IMG/VR virus record: IMGVR_UViG_3300038302_000050
Location: 1-21,979 of that record
DNA: 21,979 nucleotides
Strand: one strand, 5' to 3'
Source of the DNA: a virus
Part shown: piece after piece, positions 1,761 through 20,375 of the stretch
How positions within the stretch are numbered: the first letter of the stretch is position 1
Layout of the letters: each line of letters opens with the position of its first letter
The notes under the pieces: model-generated
What the model saw: only the letters and a program-made list of their open reading frames with translations
Database searches by the model: none
Told to the model about the DNA's origin: nothing
Program-made: the position numbers and the translations under genes

Positions 1761-1825
1761 ATCACTGGAATCTAAATGAGAATTATTCTCATTTACCGAT
1801 TTGCGGAGCTAATTTTATTTCGTAA
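1709..1825 (+). CDS. Leader peptide ORF (38 aa, TTG start) before the packaging genes
   Basis: An SD decamer AAAGGTGGTG (1694-1703) sits 5 bases before TTG at 1709. The identical decamer precedes the convincing gene at 14275 at a similar distance, which argues for real initiation here. The 38-residue product carries LHKSEYGVILCKL near its start and has no known family. It ends 10 bases before the small terminase. Its DNA contains copy B of the duplicated element and, near its 3' end, a Fur-like palindrome, so it may matter more as a translated leader or binding site than as a protein. The non-ATG start and small size keep confidence modest. Confidence 0.4.
   Translation: MTFGLHKSEYGVILCKLNHWNLNENYSHLPICGANFIS
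1774..1794 (+). promoter_or_regulatory. Fur-box-like palindrome, upstream copy
   Basis: This is a perfect 10-1-10 palindrome whose core TGAGAATTATTCTCA (1777-1791) has the 7-1-7 form of Fur sites (TGATAAT-N-ATTATCA type, with G for T at one symmetric position). It lies about 105 bases downstream of the predicted P2 start and 42 bases before the small-terminase ATG, inside the leader ORF. A bound protein there could act as a roadblock. A nearly identical palindrome occurs at 20280-20300. Fur itself is inferred from motif resemblance; a phage-encoded regulator is equally possible. Confidence 0.55.
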
Positions 1826-1835
1826 ATTGTAAGGT

Positions 1836-2606
1836 ATGCCAAAGACTTCTACTCCCATGCGAAAAAAAGAACGAGATGCATTGTTAGCACCTACTATGGT
1901 GCGCGTTTGTCATTTGTGTGGGTCTGACTTCCAGCTGGGTGAGAGAAAAATTGACAAAAAGAAGTGCGACAGGTGCCATCAGGAGAAGAAGGTAGTCTCA
2001 ACTGCTGCGAAAAATACGAGGATTCGCCTGGCTGAAAAAGGATTCGAGGGCGACTTGACTACTCAATTGAGTGCTTACGAGTCTGAGGTGATATTAAAGG
2101 GTGAAGAACTTTTACAAGCCTACGCTGCCACAATGGAGACAATGGGGTTTGACAATAAAGACACATTAATGACATTGCCACCACCGGAGCTAGTGATCGA
2201 TGAGCATGAGGCGACTAATGAGTTTTCGCCATTCTTGAAGCAGATGTTTTTGGCATTGTATGTTAAAATGCCGAGACAGGATTTGATGATATTGGAACAT
2301 CTAGGGATTTCCGAGAAGCGGTATAAACAAGATCTCAAAAAATACCCTGAGTTTCATGATGCGATTATGCAGTGTGATAGGAAGCACTTGAAATTATTAG
2401 AGATCGTTGGATTTCATAATGCACTGAATCCGAAGGCTACATCAGAGAGAATATTTTTACTAAAAGCTGGTGATCCTGCGAGATATCGTGAGTCTTATAA
2501 GGGTGATACGTTTAATATGGGGCAAGTTAATATCACGGTGAGCAGTAATATTAAAGGGCTGGGGATTGCGAAGAATGCGGTGTCTGGTGGGAAATCGCAG
2601 AAATGA
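1836..2606 (+). CDS. terS: Terminase small subunit with N-terminal zinc ribbon
   Basis: This 256-residue protein sits directly upstream of, and overlaps by 4 bases, the large terminase gene, the usual place for the DNA-recognition subunit of the packaging motor. Residues 25-47 contain CHLC and, 15 residues on, CDRC, a CX2C-X15-CX2C zinc-ribbon pattern. The middle (about 145-180) has a helix-turn-helix-like stretch ending LGISEKRYKQDLKKYPEF, and near residue 204 ERIFLLKAGDPARYRE matches the closing motif common in small terminases. I use ATG 1836: a TAA lies two codons upstream, so it cannot extend, though its TAAGG is unusually close (2 bases). ATG 1857 has no better SD. The family assignment rests on motifs plus position. 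Confidence 0.78.
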   Translation: MPKTSTPMRKKERDALLAPTMVRVCHLCGSDFQLGERKIDKKKCDRCHQEKKVVSTAAKNTRIRLAEKGFEGDLTTQLSAYESEVILKGEELLQAYAATMETMGFDNKDTLMTLPPPELVIDEHEATNEFSPFLKQMFLALYVKMPRQDLMILEHLGISEKRYKQDLKKYPEFHDAIMQCDRKHLKLLEIVGFHNALNPKATSERIFLLKAGDPARYRESYKGDTFNMGQVNITVSSNIKGLGIAKNAVSGGKSQK

Positions 2607-4096
2607 CCCAAGCACCTCACATATCAGGATTATCTTTGCCAACTCGTGACTATGAGTTAAATCTCAATTATCTGAATGAGGTGGGTGAAGGATCATTGCC
2701 TACACCGAAGCAGGAGCAATTCCACGTGATGGTGAATAATCCTGACCCACTAAAACGTATGAAGCATACAGTGTTTGCAGGTGGATTTGGAACAGGCAAG
2801 ACGGATGCGTTGGTGATTGAGGCATTGGCACAAACTTTATTAGTTCCAGGGAATCTAGGGCTTATTGGCAGGAAAACGATTGATTCATTCCGGAAGTCAA
2901 CGTTAGAGACTCTTTTAAGGTTAGCTCCCCCTGGTTCTATTATCAGGCACAATAAGACCGAGCATGAGATCGAATTTATTAACAAGTCTAAGATCGTGTA
3001 TATGCAGCTTGATGCTGGTCGTGATGCCGTTGATCGTATAAAATCGATGAACCTTGGATGGTTTGCAGTTGACCAGTTGGAAGAAATTGACCAGGAGGTG
3101 TATCTTGCAGCGCAGGGTCGTTTACGCCGTAAGGGTTCTAATAGATGCGATTTTCATACTGTCAACCCTGCTGGCCATGATTGGATCTGGCGTATATGGG
3201 TTAATGGTGAGGCTCCGGATGGTGAGGCTCTTGAGTATGGGCTTATCGAAAGTATTACATGGCCTGAAAATGTCCCGGGTCCGAAAGATGACGCAGAGGT
3301 GGCTGCACACTCAGATAATCCGTATTTACCTGCGGATTATATCAGATCGCTCTTAGCATATCCGGAGCGTTGGAAAAAAAGATTTGTTCATTGCCATTGG
3401 GATAGTTTTGAAGGATTGATTTGGCCTGAGTTTAAGGAAGGTATGCATTTTGTAGCGAGATTCCCAATACCGAGAGCGTGGCCAAGATATGTGATCATGG
3501 ATTATGGATATCGTAACCCAACTGCCATTTTGTGGGCAACGGTGAGTCCACATGGTCAAATCTTTGTGTATGACAGTCATTATAGGGCTGGATGGAGAAT
3601 TGAGCATCATGTTCCGGTTATTAGGGCGAAGTGTGGGCATCACGTTATTAAAGATTGGTTAGCTGACCCAAGCATTTCTAAGCAGGGATTTGACGGAAAA
3701 ACGATTGCGAGTGAATATCAGAAATTCGGAATCAACTGGCATCCTGCCAACAATGATGTTGGTGCAGGAATTAATAGGGTCGGTGAATATTTAACACCTG
3801 ACGAGAGCGATAAATGTAGATTGTATTTTTTCAGTGACCTTCCAGATAAAGAAGAATTTTTGAAAGAGATGGGTGGATATGTCTGGAAGGACATAAAGGT
3901 GGGTTCTGACCAACCTGACCCTGAAGCTCCTAAGAAAAAGAATGACCACTTTATGGATGTGCTAAGGTATGCGGTGATGTGGATACATAATACTTTTGCA
4001 CCGATGCATGGGTCCACTGATGCATGGGATGAAGTTTGGGGCGGTGCATGGGAAAGTCAAGACAATTCTAACTATGATTGGGTATCAGAGGCATGA
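2603..4096 (+). CDS. terL: Terminase large subunit (ATPase-nuclease)
   Basis: This is the packaging motor: it hydrolyses ATP to drive DNA through the portal and cuts the concatemer. At 497 residues it has the usual length. Walker A is GFGTGKT at 61-67. Walker B is GWFAVDQLEE at about 152-161, giving the Asp and catalytic Glu. The C-terminal RNase H-like nuclease starts with YVIMDYGYRNPTAILW (about 296-311, first metal-binding Asp) and includes DWLADPS (about 351-357) and a late DHFMDVLRYAV that supplies the last acidic residue. The ATG overlaps the small subunit stop (ATGA), and its own stop overlaps the portal start in the same way, so the three genes are coupled. All key motifs look intact. 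Confidence 0.95.
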   Translation: MTQAPHISGLSLPTRDYELNLNYLNEVGEGSLPTPKQEQFHVMVNNPDPLKRMKHTVFAGGFGTGKTDALVIEALAQTLLVPGNLGLIGRKTIDSFRKSTLETLLRLAPPGSIIRHNKTEHEIEFINKSKIVYMQLDAGRDAVDRIKSMNLGWFAVDQLEEIDQEVYLAAQGRLRRKGSNRCDFHTVNPAGHDWIWRIWVNGEAPDGEALEYGLIESITWPENVPGPKDDAEVAAHSDNPYLPADYIRSLLAYPERWKKRFVHCHWDSFEGLIWPEFKEGMHFVARFPIPRAWPRYVIMDYGYRNPTAILWATVSPHGQIFVYDSHYRAGWRIEHHVPVIRAKCGHHVIKDWLADPSISKQGFDGKTIASEYQKFGINWHPANNDVGAGINRVGEYLTPDESDKCRLYFFSDLPDKEEFLKEMGGYVWKDIKVGSDQPDPEAPKKKNDHFMDVLRYAVMWIHNTFAPMHGSTDAWDEVWGGAWESQDNSNYDWVSEA

Positions 4097-5922
4097 AAGA
4101 TTTAAAAACAGTTGATGACAAGGTAGGTTATGTCTATGATACTTTCGAGGCTACCTATGATATGCAAAAAGAGAAGCGCGAAGAAGATGCAAAGGCGATA
4201 CGGTATTATGTCGGTAAATCGCTAACTGAGAAGCAAAAACGTTCGCTTAAAGAGCGTAAACTCCCTAAATTAGAGATCAATATTGTCAAGCCTAAAGTCG
4301 ATTTAATGACAGGTATCGAGCGTGAAACTCGCACAAGCACTAAAGCATATCCTATTGAGGGTGGCGATGTGATGGTGGCTAATGGAATTGACTATTTAAT
4401 AGAGTATGTGAAAAACAGTAATAACACTGATGCGACAAGTTCGAGGGTTTTTAAAGACGCGGTAATGACCGGAGAGGGTGATTATTGCGTTGAGTCTAAA
4501 TTGGCAGATGATTTTACGTTGGATGTATCGATTCGCCGTGAGCCAAATGGTTCGATATTGTGGGATGCAGAGAGTATTGAGACAGATCCGAATGATGATG
4601 CGGAATTTGTGTTTAGGCAAAAATGGATGAGTCCTGAGAAGGTCGCCAGTTTATTTAAGAAGAATTTGGATGGTTTGAATCTTGATTTTTCTGAACGTGG
4701 CTTAAACCCTCGTACTGGCAAGGAGGATGGAAGTTATTATCGGAATGCCGGTGATCGCCAGGTATCTATGTATAAAGACAGTCTCACTGGTCGCGTTAGG
4801 GTTATTGAGATGTGGTATAAAAAGTACAGGGATGTCGCATATTTGATGGATGGCGATGGTCAGGTATTTAAGAGCCCATTGCCTATCGCCAAGGCTAAGA
4901 AAATGTACGCCAAATATATTGACGTTGGATTTGAGTTAGTTATCAAACGTGAGCATGAGATTCATGTACTCACCGTGAGTGGCGCTGAATTATTGCAGGA
5001 CAAGAAATCTCCGTACAATCACAATAGATTCCCTTTCGTGCCGAGCTATGGGTATATCGAGGATGATGGCGAAGAGATATGCAAATTTGGAATTATAAGG
5101 AATTTGTTCGATCTACAGGATGAAAAGAATAGCCGTCACACACAGATTTCTAATATACTGAAGACAGCACCTATTGGTGGTGGGTTTTATGTCGAGAATG
5201 CTGCTGATGGTACAAAGTTGAATCAGATGGGTGGCAATGAGAAGTGGGTGTCTGTCAATAGGATTGAGGACATCAAGGAGCGTGGGTATGGATATTTACC
5301 TGTATTGAATCAGATTGCTAGTTTGGAAGAGATCACTGAGCAAGACGGGAAAGAAGTCACTGGTGTCAATGATCCAATGCTTGGTATTCCAACAGGGGCT
5401 AAGGAGAGTGGGCTCGCTGCACAGGTACGGATTCGTCAAGGCACAAGAACTGTACAGGAATTGTTCGATAACCACGACAGGTCAAAACTGTCGATGTATA
5501 AATTGGTATTCTCACTGATACAGCAGTATTTCGATGAGAATAAGATCATGCGGATTCTAGGGACTATGACAAGTGCTAATGGCGAGGAAAAATCAAGAGC
5601 TATTGCACAGGCTGTTAAGAATAGCCCAGACTTAATGCAATATGACTTAAAACTTGACAAGGGTGAGAACAGTGTTACACAACGTAATGCCACATTCTTA
5701 AAGACAATGGAATTGATGCAGTTGGCACCGGAGTATAGGGCAGCGTTGTTGCCATACTTGGTGAGATTAACTGATCATCCGGATAAAGAAGAAATGTTAC
5801 AGGCGGTTGGCGTTCAATCGCAGATCAATAACACAAAAGAGGCTATCGAGTTAGTGGGTGGGGCAAGTGGTTCTCCTGCTAAGGGTGGTGGCACAAACAT
5901 TCAGCAACAGATTGCTGAATAA
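4093..5922 (+). CDS. Portal protein, P22-like family
   Basis: The portal forms the dodecameric ring at one capsid vertex through which DNA enters and leaves. I use ATG 4093 (609 residues), which overlaps the terminase stop as ATGA; an upstream in-frame TTG at 4078 would add five residues. The N-terminal half reads like P22-type portals: an acidic helical start (EKREEDAKAIRYYVGKSL), then LPKLEINIVKPKVDLMTGIERETRT, then a conserved-looking core (DAESIETDPNDDAEFVFRQKWMSPEKV). The later IPTGAKESGLAAQVRIRQG and FDNHDRSKLSMYKLVFSLIQQYFDE fit the stem and wing helices. Length and position after terL agree. The last codons form a 9-bp hairpin (5899-5920). Confidence 0.88.
   Translation: MKDLKTVDDKVGYVYDTFEATYDMQKEKREEDAKAIRYYVGKSLTEKQKRSLKERKLPKLEINIVKPKVDLMTGIERETRTSTKAYPIEGGDVMVANGIDYLIEYVKNSNNTDATSSRVFKDAVMTGEGDYCVESKLADDFTLDVSIRREPNGSILWDAESIETDPNDDAEFVFRQKWMSPEKVASLFKKNLDGLNLDFSERGLNPRTGKEDGSYYRNAGDRQVSMYKDSLTGRVRVIEMWYKKYRDVAYLMDGDGQVFKSPLPIAKAKKMYAKYIDVGFELVIKREHEIHVLTVSGAELLQDKKSPYNHNRFPFVPSYGYIEDDGEEICKFGIIRNLFDLQDEKNSRHTQISNILKTAPIGGGFYVENAADGTKLNQMGGNEKWVSVNRIEDIKERGYGYLPVLNQIASLEEITEQDGKEVTGVNDPMLGIPTGAKESGLAAQVRIRQGTRTVQELFDNHDRSKLSMYKLVFSLIQQYFDENKIMRILGTMTSANGEEKSRAIAQAVKNSPDLMQYDLKLDKGENSVTQRNATFLKTMELMQLAPEYRAALLPYLVRLTDHPDKEEMLQAVGVQSQINNTKEAIELVGGASGSPAKGGGTNIQQQIAE
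5899..5920 (+). repeat. Hairpin at the portal stop, upstream of the next SD
   Basis: ATTCAGCAA pairs perfectly with TTGCTGAAT around the 4-base loop CAGA. The hairpin ends one base before the AAGGAG SD of the 5933 gene and contains the portal stop region. There is no T-run, so it is not an intrinsic terminator. It could modulate coupling or mark an RNA-processing point. Part is constrained by coding sequence, so chance is not excluded. Confidence 0.45.
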
Positions 5923-5932
5923 GGAGTAAGAA

Positions 5933-6655
5933 ATGGGAATAACTGCACAAGGAATGCGCCAGCCTGATATAGACGTTTTTTTAAGGGCTGTTGATGATTT
6001 AGCTGATGAACTAAAGGCCGACAGAACTTTATCATTCTCAAGCTATTTAGAGCTATGTAATAAGTTAGATAGCGATGCTACGGTTGGTGATACAGACTAC
6101 TTTGACACATTGGCTGATGCTGGTGCTACTGGATGGCCAGCAAATCCAACTGCTGCTGCTCTCGATGACTCAGTTTTTACAGATATTGATATGAGCCAGG
6201 AAGACATGGTGACTTTTATTGCTGCTGCCGAATTGCTCATTAATGAGTTGAGAACAGACAGAACTACACAGGCAACTAGCTTCGCTGCGTTTATGGCTAA
6301 ACTCGATTTAGATTCAGGTGTCACTGATACTGATTATGCTGCCGTGCTTGACGTTGGAGGCACTGGTGCTGCATGGCCAGCTAATCCTGCTTCGGCAGCT
6401 ATTGACGATGCTTTATTGTCAGCGCAGGGCGTAAGCCAGCCAGACCTTTATGCCGTTTTAGCTGCAACGCAAGCACTGGCAAATGAGTTGAGAACAGATA
6501 GAACTACGCAATCAGCGAGTTACGCTGCATTACTTGCCAAGCTCGATGCTGATGGTTTAACCGATACAGATTACGCTGCCGTACTTGGCATTGGTGGAAC
6601 AGGCGATGCATGGCCAGCCAATCCAGCTTCAGCAGCTTTAGATTTAACCGCTTAA
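5933..6655 (+). CDS. Three-repeat protein (3 x ~80 residues) next to portal
   Basis: This encodes 240 residues built almost wholly from three tandem units at about 8-79, 88-159 and 168-238. Each unit is a helical pair followed by the signature ELRTDRTTQ-x-S-x-AA-xx-AKLD-x-D-x(1-3)-TDTDYAAVL and then GGTG-x-AWPANPASAA-x-DD; unit 1 is the most diverged. Units 2 and 3 are also alike in DNA, with an exact 240-base offset, indicating recent duplication. Similar LRTD...AKLDAD-GVTDTDY units occur in many unnamed phage proteins; no function is established to my knowledge. An AAGGAG SD lies 6 bases before the ATG. Its place between portal and scaffold suggests a head or neck role. The stop codon lies in a terminator stem. 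Confidence 0.8.
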   Translation: MGITAQGMRQPDIDVFLRAVDDLADELKADRTLSFSSYLELCNKLDSDATVGDTDYFDTLADAGATGWPANPTAAALDDSVFTDIDMSQEDMVTFIAAAELLINELRTDRTTQATSFAAFMAKLDLDSGVTDTDYAAVLDVGGTGAAWPANPASAAIDDALLSAQGVSQPDLYAVLAATQALANELRTDRTTQSASYAALLAKLDADGLTDTDYAAVLGIGGTGDAWPANPASAALDLTA

Positions 6656-6673
6656 CATAAGCGGAGCTTTTTG
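6648..6673 (+). terminator. Intrinsic terminator on the repeat-protein stop codon
   Basis: CCGCTTA and TAAGCGG form a perfect 7-bp stem with a 3-base loop, followed by AGCTTTTTG. The TAA stop at 6653-6655 is inside the hairpin. It would end or attenuate transcription from the packaging genes before scaffold and capsid. The short T-run suggests partial rather than complete termination, and no strong promoter is visible between it and the scaffold gene. Confidence 0.7.
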
Positions 6674-6750
6674 AAAATATTATAGCTTATTGATACTGCC
6701 GAGGTGGTAGTACAAGTTAATAGAATAGGACAAACCCAATGGAGGAACTT

Positions 6751-7500
6751 ATGCCTATTACAGAAGAAGAAAACAACGAGATTCAGAAGAAACTCGAAGA
6801 GCAGATCGAAGACGAAGATTCTAAGAAGGAATCCGATAAGGACAATCCTGGCGAGGACAACTCTTCATCCGATGACGACTCTAAACAAGATAAAACCTGG
6901 TGGGAACAGCGAGGTTTTGCGAGTGAAGAGAAAGCTATCGAAAGCTATGACAGCGCACAATCGCTGATTGGAAAACAGGGAACCGAATTAGGTGAACTTC
7001 GCAAGGTAAAGCCGGCTCCTGCCGAGGAGAAAAAGGAAGAACCTTACGATAAGTACGATCCTTATGATGAGGATAATGCTAAGTATTTCCAACAGAAATG
7101 GGCGCAAGAGGCAGTTGAGAAACGTGAAACCGAGAAGAAAGCTAATGACTCTAAGGTGAAAGCTGAAGAGGATAGGCTGGAAATGATCGGTGACTTCATA
7201 AAGAATCATCCCGATAAATCGAAGGCTGATTTAGAGAAGGTTGCTCAATTTGCCTATAAGAACGGTATCTACAATTTAGAACATGCGGATACTGTTATGA
7301 ATGCAAACGAATCGCATTCCAAAGAGACTGATAAAGTCCCTAATGGAAAGAAGAAGAGTGAGCAGATTAAGGAGCAGGTCGATACTCTCACCGATACTGG
7401 TGGTGGTGGAAAACCTGAGCCGAAGTATGCTGACAAGACTCAATCCGAATGGGGAAATATCCCGAAAGAAGAAAGGGAACAGGCTTTAAGGGATGCTTAA
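6751..7500 (+). CDS. Probable capsid scaffolding protein
   Basis: I start at ATG 6751 (249 residues) because GGAGG lies 5 bases upstream; ATG 6739, four codons earlier, is possible with AGGA 8 bases away. The product is extremely charged, with long stretches of Glu, Lys and Asp (EENNEIQKKLEEQIEDEDSK; KAEEDRL), and is predicted helical or coiled coil with a disordered acidic N-terminus. That composition, the length and the position between the portal block and the major capsid gene are the hallmarks of scaffolds, which guide shell assembly and then leave. Sequence alone cannot exclude another charged head protein. Confidence 0.75.
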   Translation: MPITEEENNEIQKKLEEQIEDEDSKKESDKDNPGEDNSSSDDDSKQDKTWWEQRGFASEEKAIESYDSAQSLIGKQGTELGELRKVKPAPAEEKKEEPYDKYDPYDEDNAKYFQQKWAQEAVEKRETEKKANDSKVKAEEDRLEMIGDFIKNHPDKSKADLEKVAQFAYKNGIYNLEHADTVMNANESHSKETDKVPNGKKKSEQIKEQVDTLTDTGGGGKPEPKYADKTQSEWGNIPKEEREQALRDA

Positions 7501-7518
7501 AATGAATAGGAGCCAATA

Positions 7519-7935
7519 ATGGCTGGAAAAACATATACCGCTTCTCTACTGAAGCAAGGTGGCTTACAAGTCCCTGCTGGCGGTTATCAATCCGCAGTGC
7601 TAGATTGTGCTGTTGATAATATCTCTAGTGGTGCTGTATGGCAAGCCCTCTCGATTCCCATTGGTTATATGGTGAAGAATGTGGGTATCGTCTGCTTGAC
7701 CGCAGAGGGTGGAACCTTAACTGTTGACATCGGTTTAACTGGTGGTGACGTTGATGGTTATATTGATGGTTTTGATGGTAACGTAGTTAATGGTATGGAC
7801 CAGAGTCTAGGCAGTGCATACGCCTTTACAGGTGGTGTATATCACGCTGCTGCCGATACTATTGATGTTCTTTTTAATGATGCTGCCGATGCTGCAAAAC
7901 TTCTTGTTTTTGCAGATTTCGTCAAGATAGCATAA
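7519..7935 (+). CDS. Small head protein, candidate decoration protein
   Basis: This encodes 138 residues with AGGAG 6 bases before the ATG, 12 bases before the capsid gene. The sequence is glycine- and aspartate-rich and strand-forming (PIGYMVKNVGIVCLTAEGGTLTVDIGLTGGDVDGYIDGF), with a closing strand KLLVFADFVKIA. This looks like a single compact beta-sandwich. Proteins of this pattern often lie beside capsid genes in phages and are assumed to decorate or stabilise the shell; I infer that role from position. It has no signal peptide or catalytic motif. A minor structural protein is the main alternative. Confidence 0.7.
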   Translation: MAGKTYTASLLKQGGLQVPAGGYQSAVLDCAVDNISSGAVWQALSIPIGYMVKNVGIVCLTAEGGTLTVDIGLTGGDVDGYIDGFDGNVVNGMDQSLGSAYAFTGGVYHAAADTIDVLFNDAADAAKLLVFADFVKIA

Positions 7936-7947
7936 GGAGATTAGAAA

Positions 7948-8943
7948 ATGAAAACTGGTGTAGCTAGTTGGGCTTCTGGTCTTCAAGTAGAAGAATGGAG
8001 CAAGGAACTTTACCATGAAGTGAACAAGGATCAGTTCTGGTCTAAATTCATGGGTACAGGTTCAAATAATGTTGTACAGGTCAAGAACGAGTTAAATGCT
8101 AAAAAGGGTGATACTATCCGGTTTGGTCTTCGCGCTCGTCTTTCTGGTAATGGTGTTGAAAACGATGATACTCTCGAAGGTAACGAAGAGAATATGCCTG
8201 TGTACGATTTCTCTGTTGTGGTTTCACAACTTAGAAATGCTGTACGCTCTGAAGGTGAAGAGTTCGAAGGTAAATATCTCTACAGTTTCCGCATGGAAGC
8301 TCTCGATGCACTCAAGGTATGGTTGGCTGAGATCAAAGATGGATACTTTTTCTCTGCTCTCGCATTGTCACCTACCAATGTGGTTGGTACTGCCAAGGCA
8401 AGTATCGCTACAACTGACCTATTAACTCCCGCGTTGATATCAAAGGCAAAGGCTCGCTGTAAGATTCCTACCGGAGACCACAGTCGCATTCGTCCTGTTC
8501 GGGTAGAAGGAAAATCATATTACATGATGATCGTATCCCCTGAGCAAGCCTATGACCTAAAACGCGATGCTGAATGGCTACAGGCACAGCGCGAAGCTGG
8601 TCCTCGCGGATCCACTAATCCTATCTTCACCGATTCAATGGGTGAGTTTGATGGTGTTCTCTTGTATGAGCATGAAGATGTGAGTACAGGCGATGATTAC
8701 GGTGGTTCAACGATTCACGGTGCAATGGCATCAATGGTTGGAGCGCAGGCACTTGTGCATGCAAACAACCGTCAGACAATTTGGCGTGAAAAAACATTCG
8801 ACTATGGTAATGAATTAGGTATCTCTGCTGGTTTTATGCAGAATCGCTATGATTCAAGTGCCACTGGTGGAAACATCAAAGCTGTTTTTAACAGTGTTGA
8901 TTTTGCCCATGTCGCTATTTACACTGCTGCAACTGATCTGTAA
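7948..8943 (+). CDS. Major capsid protein, N4-gp56-like family
   Basis: This 331-residue protein forms the head shell. Residues 53-100 carry the signature GDTIRFGLRARLSGNGV, DDTLEGNEENMPVYDF and SQLRNAVR, which I associate with the N4-gp56-type (DUF4043-like) major capsid proteins, an HK97-fold group. The rest fits: a capsid A-domain-like YYMMIVSPEQAYDLKRD-EWLQAQREA and a C-terminal ISAGFMQNRYDSSA. AAGGAGA is 8 bases before the ATG, giving strong translation, and an intrinsic terminator follows the stop, as is common for the most abundant virion protein. The family call is from motif memory, not a search. Confidence 0.88.
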   Translation: MKTGVASWASGLQVEEWSKELYHEVNKDQFWSKFMGTGSNNVVQVKNELNAKKGDTIRFGLRARLSGNGVENDDTLEGNEENMPVYDFSVVVSQLRNAVRSEGEEFEGKYLYSFRMEALDALKVWLAEIKDGYFFSALALSPTNVVGTAKASIATTDLLTPALISKAKARCKIPTGDHSRIRPVRVEGKSYYMMIVSPEQAYDLKRDAEWLQAQREAGPRGSTNPIFTDSMGEFDGVLLYEHEDVSTGDDYGGSTIHGAMASMVGAQALVHANNRQTIWREKTFDYGNELGISAGFMQNRYDSSATGGNIKAVFNSVDFAHVAIYTAATDL

Positions 8944-8957
8944 ATTGTAGGGTAACT

Positions 8958-8986
8958 AAAGGGGTGGTCTAACCATCACCCCTTTT
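8958..8986 (+). terminator. Intrinsic terminator after the major capsid gene
   Basis: AAAGGGGTG pairs with CACCCCTTT (9 bp) around a 10-base loop, and the 3' arm ends in a TTTT tract. It lies 15 bases after the capsid stop and 20 before the first adaptor gene. It would lower transcription of the tail genes relative to capsid. The short unpaired T-run suggests incomplete termination. Confidence 0.75.
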
Positions 8987-9005
8987 AATAAAAAAGAGGC
9001 ATCTA

Positions 9006-10875: not shown

Positions 10876-13279
10876 GCTTGGCGAAGCACCTAGTATTCCT
10901 GTACCTCAGAACAAACCAATGCAACGGATTCGCTGGCGTGATTGGAGTGGTGGCTATAATTCTGAGGATGATCCATTAGATCTGCCGGATGGGTCTTCTG
11001 TAGAGATTACTAACTTCAATATAGATAAGCGTGGAAAATTGGTCGACATAAAGGGCTTGTCGGCGCTACTCTCAAATGTCCCAGCAGGATTGAGCATTGA
11101 GAGGGTTTTCCAGTACAAGGTGACAAAGCCTTCAGCACAGACAATAACGATAGTGATTGGACAGGTTAGCTCATTATGGAAGGTTTACGCTGTCAACACT
11201 ACTCTATTTGCAAGGCCTGCCGATGTAAGTGGATGGCGAGATTTGACTGAGTATGTTGCAGCAGGGGCAGGGGCGAGAACTGCAACTACAAACACTGTAT
11301 TGGATCTTGGCTCAATGAGTCAAGTGGCTAATGCTCAAAGAGGTTATTATATAATCAATTTAACCCAGGGTATCAGTTCTATAGTGACAGATAGTGTATA
11401 TGATACGTTAGGGTTGGGCTTATGGGATCTTACGACTGCTAATTCTCTTGGTGGTTCACCATCAGATGACATTCTTTTGATGCGTTATCCATTGATTGGC
11501 TATTATGCTCCTGCTGGCGCAGCTACCAGTTATGATTTAGATGTGGATGATGTTAATGACATTTCATTCTTGCTTGATAATGAAGACTTACGGATAAATT
11601 TTGGTTCGAGCAATGATCAAGAACGTGGATTATGGTTTGGGTATATAGATACCGACATTTTTTATGCTGCGAGTTCTCCTGCTGACACAACCAAAGCTCC
11701 TGGGTATTCTATGGCAGGGTGGGTATGTGAAAATCAAGATTTATTACGTGTTACTGGCGAGTCTCTCGTAGTAGGTTCCACAACCACTAACGACCCCCCA
11801 CCAGTAGATACTTACTATTTCAAAGCATCTTACATGTATGATGGACACCAAGAAGGACCCCCTAATACTTTTGATTCAGGAGTCCAAACGGTAGCGACTT
11901 CATCTGGCGAGTATCCATACGCTATCGCAAAAATGAATTTCTTTTTTAATACATTAGGCGCTACAGTCACTGATGAGTCACTTTATGTACAGGGAGGTAA
12001 TATTTCTGGTGCGCCGATGTTTATGTCGTACAGAATGACAGATGTTCTATTCTATGTGTCAACTGATGCTGTGAATTTTTACCTGTTTGAGAATACATCT
12101 CTCTTCTCAGAAACATCATGGCCTCCAGTGGTCGGTGCTGGATATACAGCATCATTAACAAATACAAAATGGGTCGCAAGAGGTGGCGAGTATTCTGACC
12201 GTACAGGATTTGGCTCGATGGATATAGCTGATGCTAGTGGTGTCGGTAGTTATCCGTCAGACCCAAAGGCTATTGGGTACTGTGATGTTCAGACTATGAT
12301 TCGTGGTCGCAGGATCGTTGGCTCAATGAGGCAACCTGTTAATGGTTCTTATGAGCAGTTTGTCTTTAGGCTTGCCGCAGCACAGCCTCACTCGAATGGA
12401 ACATGGAATAATGATGTATTCGGTCAGGATTTGGCATCTCATATTGATATACGAACTAAACAGGCTGATGCTGTAATGGGGCTTGAGGAACTTAATAGTG
12501 GACTGGTGGTATTAAAACAAAACTCTCTCCACTATATTGATTTCGGTGGTGGTCGCATGGCATCATGGACTATGCGTGTTGCCAATGACGAGGTTGGGTG
12601 TATAGCCAAGAGGTCAGTCGTTTCGGTGCCAGGTGGGATTATTTTCGCCGGCAAGGATAATATTTATTTCTTCGATGGTGTAAATACTGTACCAATCGCT
12701 ACTCCGTTTAAAAGTGATTACCAAGCTCTTAGTAGTAAAGTTAATTTCCAGGGTGCTTTTTTTGCAAAGCTAAATCAATATAGAATGATAGACCCGAACA
12801 CTGGTCTTGTCTATATTTTTAATCTGCAAAGTAAATCTTGGACTTTAGACAGTACGGTAAGTAGCGGTTCGGTTAATGATTTATTCTCAACTCCTGACGG
12901 TGAAATCTTATATACACTATCAATGCAATCATATAAGATGGAGCAGTCAGGCGGTATAGGTAATATAGCTGGGACAGTGAAGTCGCCAATAGTTGAGTTC
13001 GATAAAGACCGTGAGTGGATGGTAAAGAGTATTGACATTATCTCTAAAGGCACTGGAAATTTGACGGTTACTGTATATGGCAATTATGGCGCGACATCAT
13101 TGGGCAGCTTTACCATTACACAGACATCAGCTTTAGTCCAGAATCGAAAACGGATTTTTAAGAGATTAGATAATATCCAAATTAAAGTGACAACTACTAG
13201 CAATAGTAGCTACGATACCGAAATCAATGAGATTTCAGTTACTGCCGTACCAATCCGTAAACGCAGGACGGTGGCATAA
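10868..13279 (+). CDS. Tail nozzle / stabilisation protein (P22 gp10-like role)
   Basis: This 803-residue beta-rich protein probably forms the tail tube or nozzle beneath the adaptors. Residues 26-63 contain DWSGGYNSEDDPLDLPDGSS and the following NFNIDKRGKL, the usual opening of these proteins, where the chain reads 'G-G-N, list of values, N, G-x-L'. Residues about 535-620 (MGLEELNSGLVVLKQNSLHYI, then GCIAKRSVVSVPGGIIFAGKDNIYFFDG) repeat the beta-propeller-like blade pattern found in P22 gp10, T7 gp12 and SU10-type nozzle proteins. The C-terminus is basic (VPIRKRRTVA). Its ATG overlaps adaptor 3, and its stop overlaps the next start (TAATG). It might also be called tail tubular protein B. Confidence 0.75.
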   Translation: MSRLGEAPSIPVPQNKPMQRIRWRDWSGGYNSEDDPLDLPDGSSVEITNFNIDKRGKLVDIKGLSALLSNVPAGLSIERVFQYKVTKPSAQTITIVIGQVSSLWKVYAVNTTLFARPADVSGWRDLTEYVAAGAGARTATTNTVLDLGSMSQVANAQRGYYIINLTQGISSIVTDSVYDTLGLGLWDLTTANSLGGSPSDDILLMRYPLIGYYAPAGAATSYDLDVDDVNDISFLLDNEDLRINFGSSNDQERGLWFGYIDTDIFYAASSPADTTKAPGYSMAGWVCENQDLLRVTGESLVVGSTTTNDPPPVDTYYFKASYMYDGHQEGPPNTFDSGVQTVATSSGEYPYAIAKMNFFFNTLGATVTDESLYVQGGNISGAPMFMSYRMTDVLFYVSTDAVNFYLFENTSLFSETSWPPVVGAGYTASLTNTKWVARGGEYSDRTGFGSMDIADASGVGSYPSDPKAIGYCDVQTMIRGRRIVGSMRQPVNGSYEQFVFRLAAAQPHSNGTWNNDVFGQDLASHIDIRTKQADAVMGLEELNSGLVVLKQNSLHYIDFGGGRMASWTMRVANDEVGCIAKRSVVSVPGGIIFAGKDNIYFFDGVNTVPIATPFKSDYQALSSKVNFQGAFFAKLNQYRMIDPNTGLVYIFNLQSKSWTLDSTVSSGSVNDLFSTPDGEILYTLSMQSYKMEQSGGIGNIAGTVKSPIVEFDKDREWMVKSIDIISKGTGNLTVTVYGNYGATSLGSFTITQTSALVQNRKRIFKRLDNIQIKVTTTSNSSYDTEINEISVTAVPIRKRRTVA

Positions 13280-14262
13280 TGCTTGGCATTCAAGAAGTCG
13301 ATCAGATCAAGGCGCTCATACAGACTGAGATCGAAGACCGTAACGCGAGCACGCTTGTTTATGACAGACTCCCTGACATCAGGGATGGAAAGGATGGGTT
13401 CGAGGGTGAGATTAGATTATCGTTTGATAGAGCAGGGAAGGCATACCTAAGTGCATTTGTCAATAAAAAATGGCATACAGAGGAGATAAATATGGCAGAT
13501 TTTAATCCTAAGCCTTGGTATTTAAGAGTTGCCGAGGGAGAAATCCCAGGGTATTCATTGATCCATAAGTTCGGTGCTGGCACATTGACAACTACAATGT
13601 CGCCTATCACTAACGCTGGAACATATCAAACTCCATCGACAGTACAGGCATTGGAGGTTGTGTCTGATAATGCCAATGATACGGCAGCAGGAACAGGCGC
13701 GCAAGAGGTTACGCTGATCGGATTGGACTCAAGCTGGAATGAGGTCACGGTAGTTAAGGAGCTAAATGGAACCACAGCAGTTGCGTTAGGCGCTAATAGA
13801 TTCCGCATGTATCGATGGTATGTATCGAGGTCAGGTGTCTATGCTGACGAGTCGACTGGATCTCACGCAGGCATTCTCACATTACAAGGCACAGGTGGCG
13901 GTACGGTATGGGATACAATGCCAGTGACACCATTCCCTGTCGGTCAGTCGCAGATCGGTGTCGTTACTATTCCCGATGGATACGAAGGTAGATTGTTATC
14001 GAAGAATATTTTTGTTGATTCATCAAAAACTGCCGATATATACTTTTTTAAGAGGGAGCACACTGATGATGTGACAACTCCATTTTCTGGTACAATGAGA
14101 TTGGTAGAGCGAGAGGTCGGTATCTCGGGTGGATATGCGCTTACCACAGTTGCGCCTAAGGGTCCGTTCACTGGACCGTGTGACGTTGGTTTTATGGGTG
14201 TGATGAGTGTCGGAACATCTGAGTGTTCCGTTGAATTTGAAATGTTATTAAAGAAAATATAA
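13279..14262 (+). CDS. Beta-rich virion protein of unknown role
   Basis: This encodes 327 residues, coupled to the nozzle gene by TAATG. The first 75 residues are mixed helix and strand. The rest is a repetitive beta-sandwich-like region with the phrase LEVVSDNANDTAAGTGAQEV followed by TLIGLDSSWNEVTVVKELNG, and GTVWDTMPVTPFPVGQSQIG. I have seen this NDTAAGTGA-x-x-VTI-x-GLD style of sequence in structural proteins of marine phages, where it remains without defined function. The next 80 residues look like a second strand-rich domain (GRLLSKNIFVDSSKTADIYFFKRE). A tail accessory or short spike subunit is plausible from position. No enzymatic motif is seen. Confidence 0.65.
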   Translation: MLGIQEVDQIKALIQTEIEDRNASTLVYDRLPDIRDGKDGFEGEIRLSFDRAGKAYLSAFVNKKWHTEEINMADFNPKPWYLRVAEGEIPGYSLIHKFGAGTLTTTMSPITNAGTYQTPSTVQALEVVSDNANDTAAGTGAQEVTLIGLDSSWNEVTVVKELNGTTAVALGANRFRMYRWYVSRSGVYADESTGSHAGILTLQGTGGGTVWDTMPVTPFPVGQSQIGVVTIPDGYEGRLLSKNIFVDSSKTADIYFFKREHTDDVTTPFSGTMRLVEREVGISGGYALTTVAPKGPFTGPCDVGFMGVMSVGTSECSVEFEMLLKKI

Positions 14263-14274
14263 AGGTGGTGTAAG

Positions 14275-14919
14275 ATGCCAGGAGCAACAGGGTCAACAGA
14301 TCAATTTTTAGATGGAACAAGACAGGAACAGGCGTTGCAAGAGCAGGAACGCTTACCTGAGACACAGCAATCACCAAATGTTGTAGCTCCACCGCCTACA
14401 CCAGAACCAGAGGCACCTGTTGGAATAGATGCGCTCACAGCCACACTGTACCAACAATTATTAGGCCTGATGGATCAGTCGGCTAACACTGACTTAGCTA
14501 ACAGCCAAATATCTAACCTTAATTCAATACTTCAATCCCAAGGTGCATTAGCAGGGAAAGATTTGGCTGCCGGTGGCTGGGGATCAGGGTCGGCACAACC
14601 TGCTGACATATCGGGGATATTGAGAGGCCAACAAACCGCACTGTCTCAAGGTATTGTGGGTATTCAGACAGCAGCGCAACAAAGGGCTGACATGAATACT
14701 CAGACTGCGTTAATTGGGCTTATTAATCTTAGGTCACAATTATCTAACGAGCAGCAACAGGAAGTTGACAATAAATTAAATGCTGCGATGTTCGAGTGGC
14801 AACAGTTTGTTGATGAAAAAGGTTTTGAGTTTACGGAAGAAGAGCTTGAATTAAAGAAGTGGGAAATAATCGGAAATGCTTTTGGTGATGTCTTAGACTT
14901 TTTTGACGGACCAGGTTAA
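14275..14919 (+). CDS. Probable small internal (ejection) virion protein
   Basis: This encodes 214 residues preceded by AAAGGTGGTG ending 4 bases before the ATG. The N-terminal 50 residues are Gln-, Glu- and Pro-rich (APPPTPEPEAP) and probably disordered; the remainder is long alanine- and glutamine-rich helix (QQRADMNTQTALIGLINLRSQLSNEQQQ), ending in an acidic helix. Such low-complexity helical proteins, just before larger internal proteins, are typical of podovirus ejection proteins (compare P22 gp7, T7 gp14). That function is inferred from composition and order. Confidence 0.6.
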   Translation: MPGATGSTDQFLDGTRQEQALQEQERLPETQQSPNVVAPPPTPEPEAPVGIDALTATLYQQLLGLMDQSANTDLANSQISNLNSILQSQGALAGKDLAAGGWGSGSAQPADISGILRGQQTALSQGIVGIQTAAQQRADMNTQTALIGLINLRSQLSNEQQQEVDNKLNAAMFEWQQFVDEKGFEFTEEELELKKWEIIGNAFGDVLDFFDGPG

Positions 14920-14931
14920 TAGGAGATAATT

Positions 14932-16134
14932 ATGCCTGAACAAATCGTAGAACCTGAAGAACTCGAAGAATCTACTTTCAGTAAATATAAGCCACTTATC
15001 AAATCCCTCGCTGCATTAGGCACAGGTTTAGCAGGTGGTAAAGGTGTTGGATTCTCTAAAGGATTGACATCTCAGAATAGAGGGTCGATCCAACGTAACT
15101 TGTTAGCCCAAGATATCCGCAGAAAACAAACTGAAGCACAGATAAAGGCGACTCAAGCTAAGAATAAGCAACAGTTAGATATGATATGGAAGGTCGCGAG
15201 TCAAATCGACAATGATGATGCCATGCTCAAATTTCTTGTTTCTACTGGATTTGACGAATTGGCTAATATCGCATTACCTGAATCACTAGGTGATGAAACA
15301 GACCCGGTCGATCTAAGCGCTGTAGACACTGCAATAGAAAGCATTGAAGATGACGTACAGCGCGACACTGCAAAAATGTATGCTTCAATGGCAAAGAAGT
15401 TTGGAATTGACGGCGACTTAGTGCAAATGAAGCTCTCGATAGATAAAGCTATCGCATATACTAACGGCTCCGTTAATAAACCATTTTTTAGTGATGACGG
15501 AAAGACTGTTGTCTATGCTCCGAATATGGCAGAAGCGGTGCAGCAATATGGTATAGAGTACGCCAATAAAACAAAACCAAAGACAGCCGTTCCCAAAGAA
15601 GATTCAGTAGTTAAAGGCAAATATAGAGACTTAAATTCGATCACTGGTAGCTATAGGAGTGAAGCAAGGCAGGGGTATCTCCAAGATCCGCTAGAGCAGT
15701 GGAATGTAATGGGCGATAATGCGAGAGGCTTGATGATGATGGATGATTTTGACATCCACACAGCATCGCCTATTGGTTCCCCATATCCAGGATATATATC
15801 TGGAATCTATGATATCGTTGCATTCAGTGAGATGCTAAATATCGATATTAACGCAGGTGCTATCGATTCTGACATCTCAGGCGATGAAGTTTTTGAATTA
15901 CTAAAGACTCCTCAAATGCAAAACAGAATAAACGAAAGATCAGCGACACTTCAGGGTGTTAATGTGGTCGAGCCAAAAAAGAAAAAACCGTCAAACATAA
16001 AGATGTCTCAAGACGATAACGATCAACTCGCATGGTTAAAAGAACAAAAAAGCCTGCCCGTATCACAACGCTCACAAGCATACAAGGGCGCATTGGAAGA
16101 TTTGAAGTCAAGATTTCCTAGCGTTAAAATTTAG
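14932..16134 (+). CDS. Probable internal (ejection) virion protein
   Basis: This encodes 400 residues with AGGAG before the ATG and 8 bases between its stop and the next start. Residues 20-45 hold a small glycine/alanine-rich segment (SLAALGTGLAGGKGVGFSKGL) that might insert in or contact a membrane; residues 50-95 form a basic amphipathic helix (RRKQTEAQIKATQAKNKQQLD). The remainder is helical and acidic without recognisable catalytic residues. Together with its neighbours it fits the middle member of the usual set of three ejection proteins that enter the cell with the DNA. I know no named family. Confidence 0.58.
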   Translation: MPEQIVEPEELEESTFSKYKPLIKSLAALGTGLAGGKGVGFSKGLTSQNRGSIQRNLLAQDIRRKQTEAQIKATQAKNKQQLDMIWKVASQIDNDDAMLKFLVSTGFDELANIALPESLGDETDPVDLSAVDTAIESIEDDVQRDTAKMYASMAKKFGIDGDLVQMKLSIDKAIAYTNGSVNKPFFSDDGKTVVYAPNMAEAVQQYGIEYANKTKPKTAVPKEDSVVKGKYRDLNSITGSYRSEARQGYLQDPLEQWNVMGDNARGLMMMDDFDIHTASPIGSPYPGYISGIYDIVAFSEMLNIDINAGAIDSDISGDEVFELLKTPQMQNRINERSATLQGVNVVEPKKKKPSNIKMSQDDNDQLAWLKEQKSLPVSQRSQAYKGALEDLKSRFPSVKI

Positions 16135-16141
16135 GTGACAC

Positions 16142-19100
16142 ATGCCCTTTGACCCATCACGTTTCATGCCGGAAGAGCCAAAAAAGTCAGGGTTTGACCC
16201 ATCACGTTTCATGCCAAAAACTCCTGAGATTCCTATTCCTGATATAGCATCGCCAACTGAGGTTGCTAGGATTGATCAGGTCACGGCGAATATAGCGAAG
16301 GCGAAAGAGCATGAGGAACATCGCCAGAAGATCGAGGCGATCTCCCAGCAACTTGTCACTCCTGACGTTGAGGTGTATCATCCAAAACCTCGTGATATCC
16401 TGAAAGAAAAACCGTTTATCACAGGTGGTAAGGCACAAGCTCCTGCAATTCCTGTTGAGGCAAAAGCTACTCCGGTTGCCTCAACCAAGAAATTATTAGA
16501 GTTTGTCCAAGCTATCCCTGATGGTCAAGTATCTGCCGTTGCAATAACTGATCAGCAAAAACGTTCCAGAGAAGTTTTTGATGCGTTTGATGGCGATAAG
16601 AATGCTCTCCATGCAAAGTTACGTACACTAGCAAAAGAACAGAAAAAGTCAGCTAAATGGGTTTCTAAGACCTTTAATACAATAATTAACCAAGCTGAAG
16701 CACTTCCTGAAGGTGCTAAAGTGCGCGAGGATGATTTAAAGGTAAAAATCCCTAAGATAGAACTAACCCCTGGTACTGGAATAGATACAGAGGTCACTGT
16801 TAGCCCTAAGTCTGTTCTTGAGGGAGGTCTTCAACAGATTGCAGCGACAGGTGGCGATGGGTTGGAAATCACAAAAGGGCGTGAGAAGGTTGGCAAAACT
16901 GCCAAGGTAGTTGGTGACATCGTTGAGATTGGCGCAGGCGTGTTATCCACAGGTGCATTAGGTAAGACACTTGCATCTACCGCCAAGTCTGGTATCCTCA
17001 AAAAAGCAGGTCAACTACTCGCTAATCCTGATACAAATCCTATTCCTGATGCAGCATACGCTGCGTTGAATGAGGGTGACTTCAGTAAGAAGTTTGTCGA
17101 GGGTTACGCCATAAACCTTGCACTTGGTAGGCTTATGGGTGGCAAGGGGGCGCTGAAACTCGTGAAAGATTTGCCTGTGAAAGACAGGTCTCAGATTCGC
17201 GGTACTATTGCAGAACTCAATAAAGGTTTCGATAAATTCAAGACCGCTAAAGAGCGTACCGCCATGATGAAGCGACTTGGTATTACAGAAAAAGAATTAA
17301 CTCAATTCGAGGGCGCTGTTAATTTAAGGAAACAAACTGAATTAAAGAACGCAAATAAAGAAGAATTGAATGTCTTGCTCAAATCAGCGAGAAGAGATTT
17401 AAACTATGAGCAGAGAGTCACGAATAATGCTGATGTCATTAAAGATGTTGAGGCTGATATAGCTGAGATTCAAAAGCTACAGTCAATCAACAAGAGGGAG
17501 GTCACAGAAGCTAATAAGGCGCTCTCTACTGCTGAGAAAGAAATATCTCCGAAGCTCCAGAAACAAGAACTGCTAACCGACATAGTTAAGAAACCTAAAG
17601 TCGTTAAGGATGATGTTACGCAAGAGAATGTGAAACGGAGCATCTTCAAGTCAAGGGCTAAAGATAAAGGTATCGTTCAGAATCCTGCTTATGACCGCGC
17701 TCGCAAGGCTGTCAGGAATATAAATAGGCCAACATTGACGAGCATCAGGAAGGCTTTTACTCGCAATGTGGTCGATGTGTCCGGTAATCTAAAGAAAGAA
17801 CTTCGCACTCACGGTGAGCAGGGGCAAAAAGTTGTTGACAAAATGAAGCAGGCTCTTGGTGCATCAGGGAAGGCTAAGGTCCGACACGAACAAGCTCTTG
17901 ACGATATTTTATCTGACATTCATACAGATAGGGAAAAAGAACTTCTTAGTGACTACATCGATGCTCGCAGGACATTATTCCTTGATGACAATAAAAAAGC
18001 GGTGGGTGACAGGGATGGGTTGTCTCCACATCAAATTCGCAAAGACCTGAAGCGTTTTGCAAAAGAGCATCCAGAACTGGATAAACGTAGAAGGGCTGCT
18101 GGCGATAAATATTTCGCACAGATGAATAAATTGCTAGATGACCGCCTTGAGGCAGGATTGATCGACAAGACTCTCCATAAAGAATTAAGTGGTAACATCT
18201 ATTCACCGAGAATATGGATACAGCACTTAGAGAAAACTGATGGCAATATAGCATCAACGCTTGGGGAGGCTGAGTCTGGTATCAAGGGATTAAAAGATGG
18301 ATCTGACACTGAACTTGTTAATGACCTAGAGTTCTTGTTAGGTAAGTCTATCACGAATGCTGAGAGACAGATCGCATCCAATAACGCTGGCAAGGCAATG
18401 TATGACCTGATGAAAACAGGTGAAGCTGAAGGGATGTTTGTTGAACTAAAACCATTATTCGGCAAGAACAAAAATATCAAGGGTTACACTAAACCACCAA
18501 GAGGTTACGAGCCAGTTAGTGTGATGATCGATGGTAAGAAAGTGCAGTATGGAATCCGCACCGACATGGCCGAAGAGTTTATCCTAAAAGATCCTATCTT
18601 GAGTCCACAGGTATCTAAGTGGCTCCGTATTGTTTCCGGTAATAATATCCTCAAATTCAACGCTACACAGGCATCTACTGACTTCCCACTTGCTAACGTA
18701 TTCCGTGATATTGGCACGATAATGTTCGCCAATAAAGAGTATAGTAATTTCATTCCTCTGGCCTCTGCTGAGTTAGCTGGCGATCTGCGAAAAGTCTGGG
18801 CTGACGCGGTCAAGCGTAAAGGTCGGTATTTGGATTATGTAAATGAAGGTGGCTCGATGGATTTCCTTATGGCCACTGCCGATACATGGTCGCCACAAGC
18901 TAAATCAAAATTAGCTCCTGCTGTAAAGGGTGTTTTTGATGCACTTAGATATGTCGGTGAGACATCAGAAGCATTGACAAGATTAGCACTAAGAGAGAGA
19001 GCATTAAAGAATATTTTAAAGCAAAATCCTAAGATGCCACTCGCTGAAGCACAGGTCAAGGCAACTCTCGCATCAAGACGGTATATGGATTTTGGGCAGG

Positions 19101-20284
19101 GCGGTAGAGTTGTTAAGGCGCTTGATTCAGTGATGCCATATTTCAATGCAGGGATTCAAGGCCATCGGGCATGGATGCGTGGAGCTAAGAATGATCCAGT
19201 AGGATTTACATCTAAGGTTTTTCAGGTAGGTAGTGCATCGGCAGCACTCGCAACTTATAATATTGTGAACAATCCTGAAGCGTGGGATTCTGTGCCTGAC
19301 CGTATTAAGTCATCAAATTGGGTCATCACGACTTCTGAATATGACCTCGATGATGACGGCATTAAGAAGTACAGATATTTCACTATCCCTAAACCACCTG
19401 GCATCTCAACTGCATTCAGTGTGTTTGAGGCATCTGCCGAGGCAGCGCAAGGGCGTGATGTGCCATATAAGCAGATATTGCAAGGTATTGATGATTTTAT
19501 GGGGCTAGGTTCAGTGCCACCATTGGCAGGGGCAGCACTAGCCATCGTTGGGAATGTTGACAGTTACACATGGGAACAAATATACAAATCCGGTGATAGC
19601 CCTAGGCGTGAAGAAGAAATTACAAAGACTACTCCTGAGTGGGCAATCCGAGCAGGAAAGATAACAGGTCAAAGTCCTGAGCGTATCCGTACCGCCAAGT
19701 CAAAGTATTTTACATACCGCAATGGCTGGTATGACATGTCTGCTGCCACTATTGATGCAGTCTATAGCGGAATCACAGGCAAAGAGATGAGTGAACAAAC
19801 CGACAAGATCACTGATTTCGATGGAATGCCAGGGCTTAGACGTTTTGTGCGGAAGACATCAGGCGAGGTGCCGAGAGAAAAATTAGGCGATGCAATGCGT
19901 GAGTTTAGGACTAAACGTAAAATCCAAAAGCGTGAAATGGATAAGATTATAGAATCATTACCTGAAAAAGAGTTTACTCCGTCAAGGCCAAAGGTTATTA
20001 ATGATTATATTAATAAGCAACCTGAAGAAAGCCGTAATGCGTTAAGGCAACGATACGCTAACCTGAGCCATCATAAAGATATTCCTCGTCACTTTATCAA
20101 TATCAACTATATCGCTCAAGGGTCCCCCGAAGATAAGGCCAAAGCCATGTATGATGAATGGGCGAAGGCTGATGAGCAGGGTAAAAAAGATATTGATGGG
20201 TATATTAAAAGAATTAAGGGCATGGGTAGCCGGAGGTTCAATAAGATGTACAATTTTTATAAAGATGAGGCAAAACGCAATTGA
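16142..20284 (+). CDS. Giant internal virion protein with LPD38-like region
   Basis: This encodes 1380 residues, starting at ATG 16142 with AGGTGA just upstream. It opens with two copies of FDPSRFMP (residues 3-10 and 18-25), then a proline-rich linker, a glycine/alanine segment (about 250-275) and long basic helices (about 380-560). Residues about 834-1045 (NILKFNATQASTDFPLANVFRD, then EALTRLALRERAL, RRYMDFGQGG and VMPYFNAGIQGHRAWMR) match what I recall of the LPD38 'large polyvalent protein' region. The later SPERIRTAKSKYFTYRNGWYD fits its usual extension. Such proteins are thought to be packaged and injected. No lysozyme, protease or RNA polymerase motif is evident. Its TGA lies within the second Fur-like palindrome. 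Confidence 0.75.
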   Translation: MPFDPSRFMPEEPKKSGFDPSRFMPKTPEIPIPDIASPTEVARIDQVTANIAKAKEHEEHRQKIEAISQQLVTPDVEVYHPKPRDILKEKPFITGGKAQAPAIPVEAKATPVASTKKLLEFVQAIPDGQVSAVAITDQQKRSREVFDAFDGDKNALHAKLRTLAKEQKKSAKWVSKTFNTIINQAEALPEGAKVREDDLKVKIPKIELTPGTGIDTEVTVSPKSVLEGGLQQIAATGGDGLEITKGREKVGKTAKVVGDIVEIGAGVLSTGALGKTLASTAKSGILKKAGQLLANPDTNPIPDAAYAALNEGDFSKKFVEGYAINLALGRLMGGKGALKLVKDLPVKDRSQIRGTIAELNKGFDKFKTAKERTAMMKRLGITEKELTQFEGAVNLRKQTELKNANKEELNVLLKSARRDLNYEQRVTNNADVIKDVEADIAEIQKLQSINKREVTEANKALSTAEKEISPKLQKQELLTDIVKKPKVVKDDVTQENVKRSIFKSRAKDKGIVQNPAYDRARKAVRNINRPTLTSIRKAFTRNVVDVSGNLKKELRTHGEQGQKVVDKMKQALGASGKAKVRHEQALDDILSDIHTDREKELLSDYIDARRTLFLDDNKKAVGDRDGLSPHQIRKDLKRFAKEHPELDKRRRAAGDKYFAQMNKLLDDRLEAGLIDKTLHKELSGNIYSPRIWIQHLEKTDGNIASTLGEAESGIKGLKDGSDTELVNDLEFLLGKSITNAERQIASNNAGKAMYDLMKTGEAEGMFVELKPLFGKNKNIKGYTKPPRGYEPVSVMIDGKKVQYGIRTDMAEEFILKDPILSPQVSKWLRIVSGNNILKFNATQASTDFPLANVFRDIGTIMFANKEYSNFIPLASAELAGDLRKVWADAVKRKGRYLDYVNEGGSMDFLMATADTWSPQAKSKLAPAVKGVFDALRYVGETSEALTRLALRERALKNILKQNPKMPLAEAQVKATLASRRYMDFGQGGRVVKALDSVMPYFNAGIQGHRAWMRGAKNDPVGFTSKVFQVGSASAALATYNIVNNPEAWDSVPDRIKSSNWVITTSEYDLDDDGIKKYRYFTIPKPPGISTAFSVFEASAEAAQGRDVPYKQILQGIDDFMGLGSVPPLAGAALAIVGNVDSYTWEQIYKSGDSPRREEEITKTTPEWAIRAGKITGQSPERIRTAKSKYFTYRNGWYDMSAATIDAVYSGITGKEMSEQTDKITDFDGMPGLRRFVRKTSGEVPREKLGDAMREFRTKRKIQKREMDKIIESLPEKEFTPSRPKVINDYINKQPEESRNALRQRYANLSHHKDIPRHFININYIAQGSPEDKAKAMYDEWAKADEQGKKDIDGYIKRIKGMGSRRFNKMYNFYKDEAKRN
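16148..16215 (+). repeat. Exact 23-base direct repeat encoding FDPSRFMP twice
   Basis: Bases 16148-16170 and 16193-16215 are identical (beginning TTTGACCCATCAC) and 45 bases apart, in frame. Perfect DNA identity across synonymous positions points to a recent duplication or active recombination at the extreme N-terminus of the giant virion protein. Confidence 0.85.
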
Positions 20285-20309
20285 GAATCATTCTCATTTA
20301 GGTTATATT
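20280..20309 (+). promoter_or_regulatory. Predicted promoter overlapped by a Fur-like palindrome
   Basis: TTGAGA (20281-20286, 5/6 to -35) is 17 bases from TATATT (20304-20309, 5/6 to -10), an almost ideal sigma70 layout, with RNA expected from about 20316. The palindrome at 20280-20300, core TGAGAATCATTCTCA (20282-20296), covers the -35 and spacer. It differs from the upstream copy core at 1777-1791 only in its central base. This promoter would drive 20376, 20666 and the tail fibre, separately from the structural operon. Occlusion by a bound repressor such as Fur is the expected effect. Confidence 0.65.
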
Positions 20310-20375
20310 AAGAGGATGTCACCATGTCAGAATGCTTCGGGCGGTAAGTGACACTAAACAAACAAGGAGGCTATC

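Follow-up and report, generated by a model that had tools for sequence, protein, structure and literature searches.

Two matching Fur-type palindromes at the borders of the packaging and structural block of a virus contig: candidate operators for host Fur

Why a virus should carry two copies of what looks like a bacterial iron-regulator site, one on either side of its packaging and structural genes, and which protein would read them, are the questions raised by the DNA analysed here. The window, that is, the whole stretch of 21,979 bases, is the record of a 22-kb virus contig that is possibly a fragment. The two palindromic cores lie where the initial annotation placed them (Table 1); they are two copies of one palindrome, and the window has no other perfect one of 7-1-7 form. 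Elsewhere the initial annotation had found only half-sites; the next-best window matches carry three mismatches, which is the chance level. In 300 dinucleotide-preserving shuffles of the window, TGAGAATNATTCTCA never occurred, the mean number of palindromes of any sequence was 1.55, and none of the 300 contained two sharing their arms, so that a chance origin of the pair is ruled out. Site 1 can be extended into a 10-1-10 palindrome (AAATGAGAATTATTCTCATTT), and the outer flanks, which had been described as matching, do so on the right side (TTTA at both sites) but not on the left, where AAT at site 2 stands against AAA at site 1. Between core 1 and the ATG at 1836 there are 44 bases, and not the 42 previously given as the distance to the small terminase, whereas core 2 overlaps the TGA stop codon (20282–20284) of the 1380-aa gene; barring this codon, both sites are located in non-coding DNA, which amounts to about 4% of the window. 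The non-coding region upstream of the terminase genes also harbors a 46-nt element repeated at 1484–1529 and 1720–1765 (76% identity, 236 bases apart, TTTGC/GCAAA ends).

Between the sites lie the large terminase, portal and major head genes; the labels of small terminase and ejection protein derive from position, without a family match. Other genes of the block match structural or internal virion proteins weakly, and there are also long ones without a family. Beyond site 2, the gene with a laminin-G-like domain is probably involved in host recognition. The closest isolates are podoviruses of mixed hosts, at only 25–32% identity. A prophage relative that would point to the host was sought in the class to which G007, the genome of a Janthinobacterium locus, belongs; its 369 genomes gave no match to the large terminase and one capsid match at 34%.

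Table 1. Positions of the palindromes, associated transcription signals and neighboring genes in the window
Feature	Position	Strand	Remarks
Site 1, Fur-type palindrome TGAGAATTATTCTCA	1777..1791	none	10-1-10 if extended to 1774-1794
Site 2, Fur-type palindrome TGAGAATCATTCTCA	20282..20296	none	bases 1-3 form the stop codon of the preceding gene
Sigma-70-type promoter TTGAGA-17-TATATT containing site 2	20281..20309	+	-35 and -10 identical in three relatives
Conserved non-coding leader, promoter to ATG at 20376	20310..20375	+	possible TGTCAC/GTGACA stem
256-aa gene before terL	1836..2606	+	small terminase by position only
Terminase large subunit	2603..4096	+	phrog_2, E 2.1e-31
Portal protein	4078..5922	+	phrog_156, E 1.6e-83
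Major head protein	7948..8943	+	phrog_334, E 2.1e-60
1380-aa gene, ejection protein by position	16142..20284	+	exchanged part ends at site 2 in G002
96-aa gene directly after site-2 promoter and leader	20376..20666	+	
Gene start, laminin-G-like/concanavalin-A-like domain	20808..21977, runs off record	+	PF13385, E 2.8e-12

By sequence, both phage sites are Fur boxes. The 7-1-7 symmetry had been recognized from the outset as that of Fur sites, and the sequence as well as the symmetry proves to be that of the Fur box: the inverted repeat TGAnAAT-N-ATTnTCA is perfect at both window sites, with one arm mismatch at site 2 of the diverged relative G001, and the 19-bp form of the box (AATGAnAATnATTnTCATT) is matched at 19 of 19 positions by site 1 and with a single flank mismatch by site 2 (ATTGAGAAT...). 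The same 19-mer is the Fur-box consensus of Xanthomonas campestris, AATGAgAATcATTctCATT (PMC1790865), and in Enterococcus faecalis the core precedes genes under Fur control (PMC6056675). The 20-mer is present at no fewer than 120 places in GTDB genomes; among the matches listed, identical copies are followed by genes such as those for TonB receptors, ZnuA, Fur, FeoB, FTR1 and ferritin, and the -10 hexamer is most frequent at 10 bases from the palindrome centre (26 hits versus a mean of 3). This location in front of metal-regulon genes, together with the match to a published consensus, marks the sequence as a genuine Fur-type operator of bacteria. One to four exact copies, in 0.9–6.3 Mb, are present in each of ten bacterial genomes picked for containing the palindrome, and the phage record has two in 22 kb. 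We know of no ArgR, LexA, FNR, CRP or MetJ site that fits the odd 7-1-7 symmetry.

The relatives found in IMG/VR are the near-identical contigs G002 and G003 and one diverged relative, G001, with 67–83% protein identity; the records of G001 and G002 are incomplete and probably fragments, and open reading frames in the comparison sets were called mechanically. Checked for conservation, the palindromes are kept at both homologous positions in G001. Site 1 is there TGAGAATGATTCTCA (L161:5074), 820 bases before terL (826 in the window), site 2 is TGAGAATGGTTCTCA, directly after the last large gene, and the two are 18,853 bases apart, compared with 18,505 in the window. The non-coding DNA around site 1 has otherwise diverged, and the palindrome with its TTTAC flank stands out from it; site 2 is kept in G001 and G002, and the conserved block begins at the promoter and continues through the leader of about 66 bases. 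The pair is known from two independent lineages only. A further relative (L124, 82%) begins within the gene after site 1 and is uninformative for that site. Upstream, G001 has three more degenerate copies (L161 1691, 1723 and 3125), all followed by TTTA and all non-coding by inspection, which make poor Fur boxes despite their matching flanks. The same contig contains a 31-bp unit, ATTGTAGCGGTAAAAAATTAGCCACAGGCAC, in tandem copies (L161 1112–1266).

The two sites differ in their relationship to transcription signals. The promoter at site 2 is a good one of the sigma-70 type. The site-2 palindrome spans most of its -35 element and the first part of the spacer, and the right half of the palindrome, TTCTCATTTA, is unchanged in the relatives although the promoter alone does not need it, which argues for the site-2 palindrome as a Fur operator. 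Around site 1, the scan shows no recognizable promoter. The leader downstream of the site-2 promoter folds no better than shuffled sequence, matches no family in Rfam and, used as the sole query, returned only relatives already known. A known RNA family was also considered at 1697–1802, where an ncr952 match was dropped as sub-threshold (25 bits versus a cut-off of 100), and none lies above threshold.

Taken together, the explanation that we favor, with a confidence just short of even, is that the palindromes act as Fur-box operators at late-module borders, read by the metal-bound Fur of the host, which would brake late genes under iron repletion. In iron-replete cells, Fur would bind site 2 and occlude its promoter, so that the host-recognition module would be held down, and Fur at site 1 would hinder transcription into the packaging and structural block; low iron, or the dilution of Fur by multiplying phage genomes, might then release the brake late in infection. 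This explanation is favored because the sequence equals the Xanthomonas consensus and Fur-regulated sites of E. faecalis, because the identical 20-mer precedes bacterial metal genes and has a -10 hexamer at constant spacing, because both positions are conserved across 67–83% protein identity, because viruses are enriched for the palindrome over a control of the same composition, and because E. coli phages mix TGAGAAT with TGATAAT, the Fur arm of their host. It is weakened by the promoter-free setting of site 1, by the viral copies in general, which are without the -10 spacing and more often at gene ends, by the restriction of the pair to two lineages, and by the poor quality of the three extra G001 copies. 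The proposal in the initial annotation that the two sites tie together one iron-controlled late operon is not supported, since site 1 is without promoter geometry, the sites belong to different modules, and G001 carries the three further degenerate copies.

Fur-type sites on a phage had also been considered unusual, which is not supported: hundreds of isolate phages share the same 19–20-mer. In IMG/VR, the palindrome with its flanks is found at no fewer than 119 viral loci, each in a viral contig, versus 3 for a scrambled palindrome of the same composition, and at least 97 of the sites have distinct flanks. In isolate phages, the 30-mer around the palindrome matches 2591 places versus 59 for the scrambled control (E up to 10). 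At E up to 1, phages (2.3 Gb) give 1287 matches and plasmids (7.3 Gb) 11. The phage counts are inflated by redundant records, T5-like and phAPEC8-like genomes making up many of these. The phage genes directly downstream of the copies include terminases and a portal. In E. coli phages, arms of the type TGAGAAT occur alongside TGATAAT, and the variant with TGCGAAT arms is only mildly frequent in viral contigs (at least 12 loci). Among the matches listed, the viral copies depart from the bacterial ones in three respects: they overlap a stop codon in 18 of 133 cases versus 3 of 122 in bacterial genomes, they show no -10 peak, unlike bacterial Fur sites, and their centre is G or C in 88%, versus about half of the bacterial copies. 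The gene-end bias, the missing -10 peak and the G/C centre argue against all viral copies being Fur-repressed promoters of the ordinary kind, and copies without the bacterial promoter geometry may serve in Fur titration by phage DNA or have another role. A broader proposition, which we regard as conceivable but unlikely, is that perfect Fur boxes are a widespread phage tool, placed at late-module borders, at gene ends and in the injection-stop array of T5-like phages, which would recruit or titrate host Fur so that gene timing, host iron uptake or DNA entry tracks the iron state.

Several settings recur among these viral copies. In L004, L046, L066 and L102, the palindrome overlaps the stop codon of a CHASE2-adenylate/guanylate cyclase gene (in L102 by PHROG only). 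In L062 (3280–3294) and L034 (6509–6523), it follows the stop codon of a 398-aa gene, which in L062 is the gp23 major capsid gene, and precedes a strong intrinsic terminator. Arrays of Fur-like palindromes, about 29–35 bases apart and non-coding, are present in the T5-like AKFV33 (L306 8662–9173) and in phAPEC8 (L305 42938–43039), with arms that mix TGAGAAT, TGATAAT and TGCGAAT; the AKFV33 array corresponds to the pre-early terminal-repeat region tied to the injection stop signal.

The main rival to repression by host Fur at the borders is titration, in which the boxes would be decoys: multiplying phage DNA would absorb host Fur and derepress host iron uptake, and promoter proximity would be irrelevant. 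It fits both the plasmid contrast and the promoter-free copies: boxes occur in 3′ regions and in non-coding arrays, and they are in large excess in phages over plasmids, which must coexist with their host; moreover, cloned boxes titrate Fur in an established high-copy-plasmid assay (PMC3788343). We nevertheless consider titration unlikely here, since a decoy needs neither the conserved position nor the promoter overlap seen at site 2, two sites per genome are few, and the redundancy of phage records swells the very contrast on which it draws. Somewhat more doubtful still is that the palindromes form a late-gene switch, read by a repressor or activator of the phage itself whose DNA specificity would be Fur-like. 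The dispersal of the G001 copies solely in non-coding DNA, all with TTTA on the same side, the degeneration of some of them beyond a good Fur box, and the preference for a G or C centre in viral copies, which bacterial ones do not share, would all suit such a protein; on the other hand, the search for a phage-encoded Fur found no Fur-family gene in the incomplete records of G001 and G002, and a single phage protein hardly accounts for a palindrome shared by widely differing phages with many hosts.

Other explanations set aside DNA recognition by a regulator. The ejection gene of G002 is chimeric, its first part being of the window type and its last 950 residues of the G001 type (61% identity), after which the window sequence returns at base 20280, at the site-2 palindrome; the crossover therefore indicates that the palindrome–promoter unit travels with the downstream module. 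This right crossover, and the palindromes that other phages also show at module borders, would agree with a unit kept chiefly as a recombination joint, in the manner of the promoter stem-loops of T4-type phages, but a promoter with an inverted repeat at the border of an exchanged module is seen at site 2 in a single recombinant and not at site 1, a linker would not require the exact 15-mer to persist, and neither the Fur-box identity nor the place of the sequence in bacterial regulons would be explained, which makes this role improbable. Least probable of all is a transcribed hairpin acting as a terminator, a processing site or an mRNA stabilizer. The predicted folding energy of site 1 (-10.9 kcal/mol, z -4.5; -6.8 for site 2) and the excess of stop-codon overlaps among the listed viral copies would be compatible with it; any DNA palindrome folds, however, no compensatory change is seen (G001 site 2 alters one arm base only), and site 2 lies upstream of the transcription start predicted from its promoter. 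An intrinsic terminator was rejected as well, since the scans report other terminators and not the palindromes, which have few G–C pairs, no U tract and no G+C-rich stem followed by a T run.

Compared with known systems, the sites share with the bacterial Fur box (7-1-7 or 19-bp operator of ferric uptake regulators) its sequence and symmetry and, in the case of site 2, an overlapping sigma-70 promoter, but they precede packaging and host-recognition genes and not iron genes, and site 1 has no visible promoter. On Stx1 phages, an operator for host Fur has been described that overlaps the stx1 promoter (PMC5552940); that box controls one cargo gene of a lambdoid prophage, whereas the window sites stand on either side of packaging and structural genes that belong to the phage itself. 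The promoter stem-loop cassettes (PeSLs) of T4-type phages, which combine a promoter and an inverted repeat at a module border and are tied to module exchange (PMC3950731), resemble site 2 in this arrangement; they belong to a different phage type and contain a separate stem-loop, whereas the site-2 repeat overlaps the promoter, and one exchange is seen here. For the injection stop signal region of T5, binding of a host component to its palindromes has been proposed (PMC13250531), and this non-coding region of T5-like phages contains Fur-like palindromes, although as arrays with mixed arms in the pre-early terminal repeat and not as single sites at late-module borders. Among the papers searched, none dealt with Fur boxes in the late genes of phages.

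What is known of how phage development is linked to the iron status of the host comes mainly from individual cargo genes, of which stx1 is one. The conserved pair described here, together with the excess of the palindrome in phages over plasmids and over the scrambled control, allows a direct test of whether phages read host Fur or deplete it, and Fur becomes a concrete candidate for the host factor of the unexplained palindromes in the injection-stop region of T5-like phages.
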